A DNA stretch of 64,000 nt, taken from positions 62,001 to 126,000 of the forward strand of contig JAJZPQ010000002.1 in NCBI GenBank assembly GCA_021811085.1. The letters are read 5' to 3'. This DNA is from Pseudomonadota bacterium (GTDB lineage Bacteria; Pseudomonadota; Gammaproteobacteria; Burkholderiales; SG8-39). A model generated the notes under the pieces. It saw nothing but the letters and a program-made list of their open reading frames with translations. It had not been told where the DNA came from and searched no databases. The position numbers and the translations under genes were made by a program. Shown piece after piece: positions 41,222 to 63,757 of this stretch; position 1 is the stretch's first letter, and the number at the start of each line of letters is the position of its first letter.

Positions 41222-41350
41222 TTCGTCGGCACGCGGCAATGGCCGGCGGCGCAAAAGCGCAAGCTAAGGGACATTCACCCGTCTGTTTCGCCCGGCGCGC
41301 GCGCTGCACATCGCCAATAATTCACGCATACCCGATGGCACAGGCATAGC

Positions 41351-41929
41351 ATGGCAACCAGCGCGAACAAGCAATCCAAGACTGCCCCGATCACCGCGGC
41401 CCGCCCAGAACCGGAGTCAGGCATCGAGGAAGCCGCGCCACCGCCGAAGAAAATCCGCAGCCTGGTCAAGATTGTATTAGCGCTGACGCTGTTGCTCGGC
41501 GGCGCCGGCGGCGGGGCGTGGTATTTCCTCCAGGATCAGCAGCCGGTGGCGGCGAAGGCTGGGTCCGCCAAGGTCGCGAAGGCCGCGAATGCAAAACCGG
41601 ATCCCTCCAAACCCCCGCTGTTCGTGGCACTGGAGCCGTTCACCGTAAACCTGCAGCACGAGGACGCCTCTTCCCAATACCTGCAGGTGGGGCTGGCGCT
41701 CAAAGTATCCGATGCCGGCGCCGTCGATGCGGTCAAGCTGCATATGCCGGAGATCCGCAACCGCATACTGCTCCTGCTCTCGAGCAAGAAAGCGAGCGAA
41801 CTCGCCACTGCGGAAGGCAAAAAGACGCTCAGCACCGAGCTCGCGCGCGAGGTCCTGCAGCCGCTTGCCGGAAGCGTGCCGGGCAAGGCTTTGGACAGCG
41901 TCCTGTTCACATCCTTCGTCATCCAGTAG
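41351..41929 (+). CDS. fliL: Flagellar basal-body protein FliL
   Basis: 192 residues: cytoplasmic N-terminus, one membrane helix (about 40-60, VLALTLLLGGAGGGAWYFL), a linker and the periplasmic FliL domain (LFVALEPFTVNLQHEDASSQYLQVGLAL, seen from FTVNLQ onward; VKLHMPEIRNRILLLLSSKKA). FliL encircles and supports the stator. A 129-bp gap separates it from fliK; fliM follows after 5 bp. Confidence 0.95.
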   Translation: MATSANKQSKTAPITAARPEPESGIEEAAPPPKKIRSLVKIVLALTLLLGGAGGGAWYFLQDQQPVAAKAGSAKVAKAANAKPDPSKPPLFVALEPFTVNLQHEDASSQYLQVGLALKVSDAGAVDAVKLHMPEIRNRILLLLSSKKASELATAEGKKTLSTELAREVLQPLAGSVPGKALDSVLFTSFVIQ

Positions 41930-41934
41930 CGGCG

Positions 41935-42912
41935 ATGAGCCAGGATTTTCTCTCCCAGGACGAAGTCGACGCGCTGCTCAAGGGCGTCACCGGGGAAGCC
42001 GACGAGGTCGAGGCGGCGGCTGAAACCGCGGGCGTGCGTCCCTACAACATGGCGACCCAGGAACGCATCGTGCGCGGGCGCATGCCGACCCTGGAAGTCA
42101 TCAACGAGCGCTTCGCCCGCCAAATGCGCCTCGGCCTGTTCAACTTCATGCGGCGCAGCGCGGACATTTCGGTCGGGCCGATCCGCATCATCAAGTACAA
42201 CGAATTCATCCGCAACCTGGCGGTACCCACCAATCTGAACCTGGTGCAGGCCAAGCCGCTGCGCGGCACGGCCCTATTCATATTCGATCCCAATCTGGTG
42301 TTTCTGATCGTCGACAACCTGTTTGGCGGAGACGGCCGGTTCCACACCCGGGTCGAGGGCCGCGACTTCACCCAGACCGAGCAGCGCATCATCCAGCGCC
42401 TGCTCGGCGTGGTGTTCGAGGAATACGAAAAATCCTGGAAACCGGTGTACGAATTGAAATTCGAGTATCTGCGCTCGGAGATGAACACGCAGTTCGCCAA
42501 CATCGCCACGCCCAACGAAGTGGTGGTGGTGACCACGTTCAACATCGAATTCGGCCCTACCGCCGGCGAATTCCACATCTGCATGCCCTACGCCATGGTT
42601 GAACCGGTGCGCGACCTGCTCTACAGCAGCGTGCAAGGCGACCACCTCGAAGTGGACAAGCGCTGGCTGCGCCTGCTGGCGCAGCAGGTGCAGACGGCGG
42701 AGGTCGAACTCACTGCCGTCCTCGGGCGGTCGTCGGTGACCTTCAATCAGATACTCAAAATGAAGGCCGGGGACGTGATCGCCCTCGACATTCCCGATGC
42801 CATTACCGCCGCCGTCGATGGGGTGCCGGTAATGGAATGCCACTACGGGCTGTTCAACGGCCAGTACGCACTCAAGGTCGAGAAAATGCTGGCCAGTTCG
42901 GTCGGCGACTGA
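41935..42912 (+). CDS. fliM: Flagellar motor switch protein FliM
   Basis: 325 residues. The N-terminal CheY-binding peptide is present (DFLSQDEVDALLKGV), followed by the FliM core (RMPTLEVINERFARQMRLGL; FGGDGRFHTRVEGRDFT) and a SpoA domain at the C-terminus (AEVELTAVLGRSSVTFNQIL). The frame is open far upstream through fliL, but the family start is ATG 41935. It receives the signal from CheY. Confidence 0.97.
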   Translation: MSQDFLSQDEVDALLKGVTGEADEVEAAAETAGVRPYNMATQERIVRGRMPTLEVINERFARQMRLGLFNFMRRSADISVGPIRIIKYNEFIRNLAVPTNLNLVQAKPLRGTALFIFDPNLVFLIVDNLFGGDGRFHTRVEGRDFTQTEQRIIQRLLGVVFEEYEKSWKPVYELKFEYLRSEMNTQFANIATPNEVVVVTTFNIEFGPTAGEFHICMPYAMVEPVRDLLYSSVQGDHLEVDKRWLRLLAQQVQTAEVELTAVLGRSSVTFNQILKMKAGDVIALDIPDAITAAVDGVPVMECHYGLFNGQYALKVEKMLASSVGD

Positions 42913-60830: not shown

Positions 60831-61565
60831 TCAGAGGTGCCGGATCTGGCTGCGCAAGCGCGCAATGGCCTGGCTGTGTAGCTGACAGATGCGCGATTCG
60901 CTCACGCCTAGCGTCTCGCCGATCTCGCGAAAGTTGAGTTCCTGTTCGTAATACAAGCCCATTACCGCCTTCTCCCGCTCCGGCAGGCCCGCAATCGCCT
61001 TGACCAGCCGCTCGCGCAGCTTGCGGTCGAGCAGCGCTTCGAGCGGATTCGCGCCGCCGTCCCCGCAATGGCGTTCGAGGAAGTCACCGCCGTCACCATG
61101 ATTGAAATCCTCGATCGAGATCAGCTGGTAGCCGCGCGCCTCTTGCAGCATCGTCTGGTATTCGGTGAGAGGTATGCCGAGCTCGAGCGCCACCTCGTTC
61201 TCGCTCGGGGCACGGCCCAAGCGCTGTTCGAGCTTGGCGATCGCATTCTCGATGCGGCGCAGATCACGCCGGAAGCTGCGCGGCAGCCAGTCGGCCTGGC
61301 GCAGGCCGTCGAGTATCGCGCCGCGAATGCGCTGCGCCGCGTAAGTCTCGAACTGCGCCCCGTGCGATTCCTCGTAGCGGTTGACCGCATCGAGCAGGCC
61401 GAGCATGCCGGTCTGGATGACGTCGTCGAGCTCCACGCTTGCGGGCAACTTCGCCATCATGTGATGGGCGATGCGCTTGACCAGCGGCGCGTACAGCGTC
61501 AGATAGCGCTGCGTGTCGCGGGTGGCGTCAGCGGGTGCGGTAACAGCGGCGGTAGCGGTATACAT
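60831..61565 (-). CDS. fliA: Flagellar sigma-28 factor FliA
   Basis: 244 residues with sigma regions 2 (LDDVIQTGMLGLLDAVNRYEES; FETYAAQRIRGAILDGLRQAD), 3 (LGRAPSENEVALELG) and 4 (LPEREKAVMGLYYEQELNFREI; SRICQLHSQAIARLRSQ). It reads the TAAAGTTT-N11-GCCGATAA promoters found across this window. Genes flhA-flhF-flhG-fliA-motC-motD lie in line. Confidence 0.97.
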   Translation of the reverse strand: MYTATAAVTAPADATRDTQRYLTLYAPLVKRIAHHMMAKLPASVELDDVIQTGMLGLLDAVNRYEESHGAQFETYAAQRIRGAILDGLRQADWLPRSFRRDLRRIENAIAKLEQRLGRAPSENEVALELGIPLTEYQTMLQEARGYQLISIEDFNHGDGGDFLERHCGDGGANPLEALLDRKLRERLVKAIAGLPEREKAVMGLYYEQELNFREIGETLGVSESRICQLHSQAIARLRSQIRHL

Positions 61566-61589
61566 AATATATTGGTCCTGGTGGCGGGT

Positions 61590-62453
61590 TTAGGCCGCAG
61601 CGATGCGCGGCCCGTTCGAGTGGATGAGTCGACGCATGAAATCATCGAAGCCGCAGCCGTCTTCCTCGGTCCGCGGCCAGTCGGCGACCGCCTGCGCCAT
61701 ACGGCGAAAGCTTGCCGCCGCCGCCGCGCCGGGGAATGCCGCTACCACGGGCAGGCGCAGCCGCGCCGCGTGCTGGAGCTTGTCGTCGCGGGGGAGGTGG
61801 CCGATGAAATGGAGCGACGCGCGCAAGTATCGCCGCGCCACCGCGGCCATATTGTCGAAAATCGTCCGCGCCTCGCTTTCGCTGGCGACGTTACCGACCA
61901 GCACATGGAATTCGCGGCGCGCGAGCTCGTTGCTCAGCCGCTTAATCGATGCATAGGCCGCGGTGATTGCGGCGGCGCTGCTCCCGGCTATGACGATCAC
62001 CTCCTGCACCGCGGTGCCGGGCCAGGCGAGAGCATCCGCGCCGCGCGGGGCGGCGTCGACCAGCAGTGTATCCACCGGAAAACCCGGCCGGCCGCATCGA
62101 TCCAGCAGTCGCTGCTGCTCCGGCGCCGGCAGGTGCGCCAGCGAGCGAGCGCCGCAGGCGAGCGGCAGTATGCGGATTCCGGCCGGGCCGCGTACGATCA
62201 CCTCGTCGAGATTGCGCGACCGCCGGATCACGTCTTCGAAGTCGAACCGCGCCTTCAGCCCCAGCGCCGCAGCGACGCCCTGCGCGGCAGGATAAGCATC
62301 GAGGATCAGCACGTCGTTGCCAAGCTCGGCCAGCGCCCCGGCAAGATTGATGATGGCCGCGGTCGTGCCGCCGGCGCCGGCGCTGATCGACACGACGCGC
62401 AGCCCGTTGCGGTCGAGCAAGCGGCGCAATCCCTGGGCCTGATCAGATCGCAT
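61590..62453 (-). CDS. flhG: Flagellar number regulator FlhG (FleN), degenerate P-loop
   Basis: 287 residues, MinD/ParA-like. The N-terminal FlhF-activating motif is present (DQAQGLRRL), as are DVLILDAYPAAQGVAAALGL and LLVDAAPRG. The deviant Walker A, normally KGGxGKT, reads AGAGGTT here, so both lysines are lost, and ATP binding or dimerisation may be altered. ATG 62453 gives the canonical start; upstream codons to 62471 precede DQAQ without support. Downstream of flhF across an 86-bp gap with repeats. Confidence 0.9.
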   Translation of the reverse strand: MRSDQAQGLRRLLDRNGLRVVSISAGAGGTTAAIINLAGALAELGNDVLILDAYPAAQGVAAALGLKARFDFEDVIRRSRNLDEVIVRGPAGIRILPLACGARSLAHLPAPEQQRLLDRCGRPGFPVDTLLVDAAPRGADALAWPGTAVQEVIVIAGSSAAAITAAYASIKRLSNELARREFHVLVGNVASESEARTIFDNMAAVARRYLRASLHFIGHLPRDDKLQHAARLRLPVVAAFPGAAAAASFRRMAQAVADWPRTEEDGCGFDDFMRRLIHSNGPRIAAA

Positions 62454-62462
62454 GCCAAGAAC

Positions 62463-62488
62463 CCGTAGCAAAAGTCATTTTGCTACGG
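62463..62488. repeat. Hairpin between flhF and flhG
   Basis: Perfect 11-bp arms CCGTAGCAAAA / TTTTGCTACGG with a 4-nt loop. The arm TTTTGCTACGG is also part of the large hairpin after fliR (45707-45757). It directly adjoins the dispersed repeat copy 3. Confidence 0.75.
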
Positions 62489-62539: not shown

Positions 62540-63757
62540 CTAGCCAAGGCTGGCTCCCGCGAAGGCGTTTCCCGCTGGCGCGGTAGCCAGAACCAGCTGG
62601 CATTCCGCCGCATCCAGGTGGTGCACCGAAGGCGTGGTCACCGGGCGCAGCGCGCGCGCGAGCAGATATTCCTTGTCCGGCAAGTGCAGGTCTTCCGGGA
62701 CGCGCTGCCCGTCGGTGACATAGTGCAGCGACAGCTGATGGCGAATGGCGACGTCGAGCGCGGTGGCGATGCCCACCGCCTCGTCGATCTTGGTGATAAT
62801 GCAGCCATGCACTCCGCCGCCGCGATACACGCGCACTACGTCGTCCAGCGTCTCGCCGTTGCCGGTGGCGTTTAGCAGCAGCAGGCGCCGCACCTCGGTT
62901 CCGGACCCCGAGAGCAGCTCGAGTTGCTCCGCGACCATCTGGTCGCGCTGGCTCATGCCTACCGTGTCGATGAGGACCAAGTGCTTGCCGCGCAGATCCT
63001 CGAGCACGAACCGCAGGTCGGATGCATCCTTGACCGCGATCACGCGCACGCCCAGCAGTTTGCCGTAGATGCGCAGCTGCTCGTGGGCACCGATGCGGTA
63101 GCTGTCGGTAGTCAGCAATGCAAGCCGCTCGGCGCCGTAGCGCACGACGCAGCGCGCGGCGATCTTGGCCACCGTGGTGGTCTTGCCGACGCCGGTCGGG
63201 CCGACCAGTGCGTAGGCGCCGCCGCGTTCGACGATTTCGTCCGCGCCGCCGGCAATGCGCAGGTTATGACTGAGCACGGCTTTCACCCAGGCCAGCCGCT
63301 GTTCTGCCTCCAGTACCGGCGGCATCTTGGCAAGAAACTGCCGCGCCAGCGTTGCGCTGAAACCCGCGTGCAGCAGATCGCGCAGCACGCGCGTCTTGCC
63401 CGGCTCGCGCCGCTGCGCCGTGTCCCAGGCCTGGTAGACGAGCTGCTCTTCGAGCAATCCGCGCATCGACTTTATTTCGCTCGCGAGGCTGTGCGAACCC
63501 GAATCCTCTGCCGCCGTCGCGGCAGGCGCGGCCGGCTGCGCGCTGTGCGCCGGCCCGGCGGCCTTGCCCTGGCGTTCGCGCGGCACCGCCTGCGCCATCG
63601 CAGCCTGCGGCGGCAGATCGCCCGGAGCCACGGCGAGGAATTCCACGCCGCTGTCGACCGCCCGGCTCGACAGGATCAACGCATCCGGACCCAGGCCCTG
63701 CCGTACGAGCTGCAAGGCCTGGCGCGAGGTGGCGGCGAAAAATTTCTTGACGTTCAT
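62540..63757 (-). CDS. flhF: Flagellar GTPase FlhF (SRP type)
   Basis: 405 residues. N-terminal B domain (VKKFFAATSRQALQLVRQGL), Ala/Pro-rich linker, then the SRP GTPase NG domain with GPTGVGKTTTVAKIA, TTDSYRIGAHEQLRIYG, VLIDTVGMSQRD and TKIDEAVGIA. It marks the pole for flagellar assembly with FlhG. Its ATG overlaps the flhA stop (ATGA). Confidence 0.96.
   Translation of the reverse strand: MNVKKFFAATSRQALQLVRQGLGPDALILSSRAVDSGVEFLAVAPGDLPPQAAMAQAVPRERQGKAAGPAHSAQPAAPAATAAEDSGSHSLASEIKSMRGLLEEQLVYQAWDTAQRREPGKTRVLRDLLHAGFSATLARQFLAKMPPVLEAEQRLAWVKAVLSHNLRIAGGADEIVERGGAYALVGPTGVGKTTTVAKIAARCVVRYGAERLALLTTDSYRIGAHEQLRIYGKLLGVRVIAVKDASDLRFVLEDLRGKHLVLIDTVGMSQRDQMVAEQLELLSGSGTEVRRLLLLNATGNGETLDDVVRVYRGGGVHGCIITKIDEAVGIATALDVAIRHQLSLHYVTDGQRVPEDLHLPDKEYLLARALRPVTTPSVHHLDAAECQLVLATAPAGNAFAGASLG

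Follow-up and report, generated by a model that had tools for sequence, protein, structure and literature searches.

The flhG gene of this locus raises the question of what an FlhG protein can do once the residues expected to bind ATP are gone. A 2025 review, in its accessible part, describes FlhG as a MinD-type ATPase in which the ATP-dependent dimer is central, and treats as open whether FlhG also works with master regulators besides FlrA and FleQ. A preliminary description of the window, by which we mean the whole stretch of 64,000 nucleotides analyzed here, had noted that the P-loop of its FlhG reads AGAGGTT in place of KGGxGKT, while the FlhF-activating motif DQAQGLR is kept. That reading stands: the open reading frame is real, and both lysines are gone in our alignments. 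The position given for the P-loop, 62350-62370, has to be corrected to 62361-62381, and three features discussed below went unmentioned, namely the shortened loop, the lost aspartate that we presume to be catalytic, and the retained residues for C-ring docking.

An FlhG protein with an altered nucleotide site

A phmmer comparison with Pseudomonas aeruginosa FleN gives 1.8e-38, and the gene lies directly downstream of flhF and before fliA, the order that characterizes FlhG/FleN (Table 1). A TTG at 62471, upstream of the ATG, is a second possible start. The nearest solved relatives of the protein are P. aeruginosa FleN and Geobacillus FlhG. Pfam and NCBIfam models match it only below their cut-offs, with MinD/ParA-type models among the best; Pfam CbiA, for example, scores 24.9 bits against a cut-off of 25.4. 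Our AlphaFold2 model, built on a 41-row alignment, has a mean pLDDT of 87. Its best structural match is apo-FleN (5jvf; Z 28.2, rmsd 2.5, 253 aligned residues), and the comparison with Geobacillus 4rz2 (Z 28.1) likewise identifies the FlhG fold. A 466-residue open frame runs antisense to flhG (61068-62468, plus strand) and is most likely a by-product of the high G+C content.

Table 1. Coordinates of the genes and sites discussed, as positions in the window
Feature	Position	Strand	Remarks
flhG, 287 residues, probable pseudo-ATPase FlhG	61590..62453	minus	ATG at 62453; stop codon ends at 61590
flhF, partner SRP-type GTPase, P-loop intact	62540..63757	minus	TIGR03499 FlhF 255 bits, cut-off 174
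fliA, flagellar sigma factor, downstream neighbor of flhG	60831..61565	minus	NF005413 FliA 299.8 bits, cut-off 201
fliM, candidate docking partner, in a stop-to-stop open frame	41350..42909	plus	Pfam FliM 250.1 bits, cut-off 27
DQAQGLR, FlhF-activating motif, residues 4-10	62424..62444	minus	within predicted helix 2-13
AGAGGTT, decayed P-loop, residues 25-31	62361..62381	minus	neither lysine kept; shortened by two residues
Tyr54, replacing second Asp of the DAD motif	62292..62294	minus	alignment column 55
Lys171, putative C-ring-docking residue corresponding to Lys177 of Geobacillus FlhG	61941..61943	minus	by alignment to 4rz2
Tyr209, putative C-ring-docking residue corresponding to Phe215 of Geobacillus FlhG	61827..61829	minus	by alignment to 4rz2
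C-terminal helix 269-278, FDDFMRRLIH	61620..61649	minus	at the place of the FlhG membrane-targeting helix

AGAGGTT occupies the place of the KGGVGKT of FleN and FlhG. The phmmer alignment to FleN pairs Ala27 with the signature lysine and leaves the Gly-Lys of GKT facing a gap of two residues, whereas in the profile alignment this gap comes two or three positions sooner and Thr30 faces the Walker lysine. Under both alignments no lysine remains, and the loop is shortened by two residues. The protein therefore has neither the Walker A sequence KGGxGK[ST] of FlhG/FleN nor the signature lysine of active MinD/ParA ATPases. It also carries Tyr54 in place of the second aspartate of the DAD motif, which we take to be the catalytic residue and which fits D60 of Vibrio FlhG; this column holds aspartate in 48/48 gammaproteobacterial controls but in only 7 of 140 rows from the window's order. 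Judged from its sequence, the protein should be unable to bind ATP in the FlhG/MinD manner or to sandwich two ATP molecules in a dimer.

Distribution of the nucleotide motif in the order

From the window's order, probably Burkholderiales to judge by L033 and the named records, 300 genomes were searched for FlhF, and 198 have it. The region downstream of flhF was examined in 139 of these 198 (roughly one per genus, plus replicates) and in six relatives, with FlhG located by a profile independent of its motifs. An FlhG-like frame was present at 197 of 202 loci. The 188 rows counted comprise 140 from the order and 48 from elsewhere in the class, the latter serving as gammaproteobacterial controls; six rows were left out as other proteins (L002, L003, L021, L030, L031, L032), two as duplicates (L033, L034), and L015 as an exception described below. 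The P-loop region is deleted, truncated or cut in nine of the 140 order rows, which leaves 131 readable.

The full motif KGGxGK[ST] occurs in none of these 131 rows and in all 48 controls. In an enlarged set that includes other classes, from which five more duplicates were dropped, the counts are 0/141 order rows against 82/82 others; five of the loci added there (L212, L217, L219, L249, L251) have no FlhG-like frame. At the level of the motif, the loss is a property of the order and not peculiar to this genome. The comparison with relatives that the preliminary description had proposed as a check bears out its reading of the P-loop, but its suggestion that FlhG behaves differently "here" was too narrow in scope.

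Named strains show the same pattern. Burkholderia glumae BGR1 FlhG (WP_012734297.1) has DQAEGLRR and the loop GGPVGVGCT, and Cupriavidus metallidurans CH34 FlhG has DQAESLRR and the loop ADAGAGATT. Like the window protein, both keep DQAxxLR, have a P-loop without either lysine, and are encoded downstream of flhF; they differ from it in the loop that replaces the motif. Aeromonas caviae FlhG carries both motifs, and P. aeruginosa FleN has KGGVGKT without DQA. The exception left out of the counts, L015 (genome G016), comes from the window's own family and has KGGVGKT without DQA. It is flanked by a divergent flhF fragment (31%) and fliA (37%) and looks like part of a second flagellar system. The excluded proteins of L021, L030 and L031 (G011, G007 and G018) are canonical MinD-like proteins that resemble FlhG but lack DQAxxLR, and no flhF or fliA match was found at these three loci.

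Close relatives of the window carry other loops. The closest, L004 (genome G012, on the same contig as L033 in a Betaproteobacteria MAG), has an FlhG 79% identical to the window's. Its loop, SASASGKA, has the same short length but keeps a lysine, with no Thr or Ser after it. Two further relatives read GNGGSGKT (L005) and GAGGRGKA (L006). In the FlhF tree L006 branches first, then L005, then the window with L004, which implies two or more losses of GK[ST] among these few relatives, barring a regain. Over the whole of this quickly built tree, 12 changes are needed to account for the GK state, gains and losses pooled.

An alternative to loss of ATP binding is that the shortened loop, together with backbone contacts, still holds nucleotide in an atypical manner and sustains a weakened ATP cycle. 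The FleN fold is indeed retained (Z 28), and so, in many order rows, are the first Asp of DAD (122/140) and the Walker B Asp (95/140); GK[ST] persists in 26/131, and a lysine of some kind sits in the Walker column in 39/140, L004 and L006 included. We nevertheless regard this alternative as unlikely. The signature lysine survives in only 6 of 131 rows, GK[ST] is lost in 105 of 131, and the second DAD aspartate is almost always replaced, while the window loop itself has no lysine and is two residues short. Moreover, the replacement loops vary from genus to genus and no single new motif is conserved, a pattern that decay would produce and a newly conserved site would not.

Retained sites and selection on flhG

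In contrast to the nucleotide site, the N-terminal DQAxxLR is present in the window FlhG and nearly invariant in the order. Among the 140 order rows, those with a letter at the position have D in 126/126, Q in 129/129, L in 129/129 and R in 128/129. In the enlarged set the strict pattern occurs in 132/141 order rows, 42/65 gammaproteobacterial rows and 0/17 rows from other classes. A looser DQA pattern raises the order count to 134/141; it is missing in 15 of the 17 other-class rows, many of which have a DNQVATLK-like stretch there. On the side of the partner, the P-loop pattern of FlhF is intact in 83/83 order FlhF sequences, these being the ones complete enough for the tree.

The second retained site is the putative C-ring-docking face. 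In Geobacillus, the accessible part of the source reports that FliY binds FlhG independently of nucleotide and that this requires Lys177, an Arg and Phe215 (PMC12327844); in that text the Arg is numbered 277 twice and 207 once. We mapped these residues through the alignment to 4rz2, with a numbering offset of 8 inferred from the matching of K177, R207 and F215. The docking lysine is K in 128/140 order rows and 48/48 controls, a neighboring tyrosine is present in 129/140 order rows, and the position of Phe215 holds F or Y in 106/140 and 48/48, respectively. The third residue is not retained in the window FlhG, which has Asn201 in place of the Arg. The FliM of the window has the N-terminal sequence SQDEVDALL. 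The model also predicts a C-terminal helix, and the alignment with FleN extends to FleN residue 276.

The sequence of the gene is constrained. Between the window and L004, dN/dS is 0.115/0.583 for flhG, 0.097/0.477 for flhF and 0.062/0.568 for fliA, which gives ratios of 0.20, 0.20 and 0.11. Thus flhG is a living gene under purifying selection equal to that on flhF.

These values bear on a second alternative, in which only the N-terminal helix matters and the remainder of the gene is drifting toward loss. Several observations in the order fit such a decay. Two genomes of one genus (L029:1435-1755 and L108) encode a mini-FlhG that measures about 106 residues counted from the motif; in it, DQAEGLRR is followed almost directly by the C-ring-docking half and the P-loop half is gone. 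In five genomes, four of them in family f4 (L259-L262; G129, G251, G163 and G278) and the fifth being G236 (L263), the profile found no FlhG-like frame in the roughly 5 kb that follow flhF. DQA is absent, even in its loose form, in 7/141 order rows, and the columns of the C-terminal helix hold no letter in about 60/140. However, drift outside the helix should not leave a whole-gene ratio equal to that of flhF, nor should it spare Lys171, Tyr167 and the docking face, which are conserved far from the helix. Even the mini-FlhG keeps its docking half: the two copies share 98 of 108 compared residues, with a dN of 0.045 and a dS of 0.155, and their dN/dS of 0.29, which rests on few changes, again speaks for constraint. 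We therefore consider a gene on its way to loss improbable. A single-sequence model of the mini-FlhG gives a small alpha/beta fold with a pLDDT around 90 in the core and 76 overall, exceeding 50 in only two of five models. As a separate observation, four FlhG proteins of family f49 lack the P-loop motif, and DQA is altered in one of them (L085) and gone in the other three (L088, L093 and L218); these are far decayed but still in place.

That the protein is a normal FlhG ATPase with a misread motif is very unlikely, since homology, synteny and fold are all FlhG-like but both lysines and the second aspartate are absent in the alignment. A sequencing or assembly error, which the preliminary description had named as a possible refutation, or a pseudogene of one genome, is scarcely credible even for an assembly in 148 contigs: the frame is intact, the loop of L004/L033 is equally short, and the full motif is missing from all order rows counted, with the same pattern in named plasmid records.

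A possible nucleotide-independent role and the master regulators

We consider it probable that the window FlhG is a pseudo-ATPase acting as a nucleotide-independent adaptor, which stimulates FlhF and docks on the C-ring and has lost the ATP dimer for FlrA/FleQ. The DQAQGLR helix would enter the GTP-bound FlhF dimer and stimulate GTP hydrolysis, while the face formed by Lys171 and Tyr209 would hold the C-ring protein FliM, so that FlhF would be switched off where the C-ring is being built. What would be missing is the ATP-dependent change of partner, in which the dimer takes FlrA/FleQ at the site shared with FliM. In the simplest reading, the FlhF and C-ring jobs would be what remained to FlhG, and its ATP-dependent link to the master regulator would have decayed. 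The nucleotide-independent activation of FlhF proposed in the preliminary description is one half of this model, and the conservation pattern, with DQAxxLR near-invariant, the nucleotide site decayed and selection as strong as on flhF, points to it. Its further suggestion, a changed way of counting flagella, is at this stage an inference.

Comparison with known systems shows which functions would have been separated. FlhG of Shewanella and Vibrio has the two activities proposed for the window protein, activating FlhF through DQAxxLR and binding the C-ring, according to the accessible parts of those reports. Shewanella FlhG differs in having an ATP-dependent switch: FliM and FlrA use a shared site, FliM binding the nucleotide-free protein and FlrA only the ATP-bound dimer (PMC11236974, available in part). 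Geobacillus/Bacillus FlhG (YlxH; 4rz2, 4rz3) shares with the window protein DQAxxLR, the docking lysine, the aromatic residue and the fold, but the Geobacillus protein has KGGVGKS, forms ATP dimers and carries the docking Arg. P. aeruginosa FleN (5j1j, 5jvf, 7ejw, 8p53) shares the fold, the flhF-fleN-fliA order, about 32% identity and the C-terminal helix. With its KGGVGKT, ATP dimer and FleQ binding but no DQAxxLR, FleN is the reverse of the window protein.

Mutants of the canonical proteins set some limits on this model. In Vibrio alginolyticus, the available text reports that Walker A mutants of FlhG are defective, losing polar localization and becoming hyperflagellated; an FlhG without ATP would therefore need another route to its place. 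The D60A mutant is described there as nearly normal in function, so loss of this aspartate by itself says little. FleN K19A loses dimerization and efficient ATP hydrolysis and does not bind the immobilized AAA+ domain of FleQ, yet still inhibits full-length FleQ in part (PMC10723142, as far as its accessible portion goes), which suggests that dimerization does not account for all of the FleQ branch.

If the ATP switch serves the master regulator, loss of FleQ may have allowed the decay of the nucleotide site. We searched for FleQ (PF06490) in 80 genomes of the order and for FlhC in 145, with 48 gammaproteobacterial genomes as the comparison set; these 48 also served as the control for PF06490, which found no positive among the 14 built-in controls. 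The Pfam cut-off of 22 bits is passed by 45/80 order genomes and 47/48 gammaproteobacterial genomes. The highest score in the order is 32.2 bits, whereas 40/48 controls reach at least 33 bits, a line that was set after the scores were seen. Hence there is no strong FleQ match in the 80 order genomes, and we tentatively read their matches of 22-32 bits as related receiver domains. An important caveat is that this is a single contrast of two clades and not a repeated test, and 8 of the 48 gammaproteobacterial genomes score no higher for FleQ yet keep KGGxGK.

The window's own genome encodes FlhC about 10 kb beyond the window (G000:C118:135646-136155, 273 bits), and strong FlhC matches (at least 240 bits) occur in 79/145 order genomes against 0/48 controls, three of which have weaker ones. 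Within the order, FlhC is not associated with the motif: GK[ST] is kept in 10/70 rows with FlhC and 16/61 without (Fisher p = 0.12), and independent pairs gave no signal either. We therefore do not claim FlhDC as the cause of the Walker loss. No substitute ATPase for FlhG was seen in the window's genome (98% complete, 148 contigs), where no MinD passes the TIGR01968 cut-off and the best matches of that search look by eye like ParA and Mrp/ApbC.

Taken together with the pseudomonads, these observations suggest a wider model, which we offer tentatively: FlhG may be a protein of two modules that evolution can separate. The order keeps the helix and the C-ring face and drops the ATP switch, to the point of a mini-FlhG in one genus, while the pseudomonads keep the switch and drop the helix, so that the modules come apart in both directions. 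The ATP cycle would then serve the FleQ/FlrA branch, and control of FlhF and loading of the C-ring would be independent of ATP. In our survey, eight rows of family f180, probably Pseudomonadaceae, keep the ATPase motif and have lost DQAxxLR. The pseudomonad loss is already known, the absence of DQAxxLR from pseudomonad FleN being stated in the accessible part of a 2025 paper (PMC12713375). For Walker A loss in betaproteobacterial FlhG, no title or abstract opening was found among the literature matches listed; subscription papers may have it.

By keeping the gene without its ATPase motifs, the order sets FlhF stimulation and C-ring loading apart from the ATP switch, functions that are bound up with one another in Vibrio and Shewanella, and makes the role of ATP in FlhG testable. 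It is also a warning that the ATPase label on such proteins may be wrong. The C. metallidurans flhG frame is absent from the gene table of its record, and in two Cupriavidus loci (L254, L256) flhG does not follow flhF directly but starts some 1.3 kb past the point where the flhF match stops.
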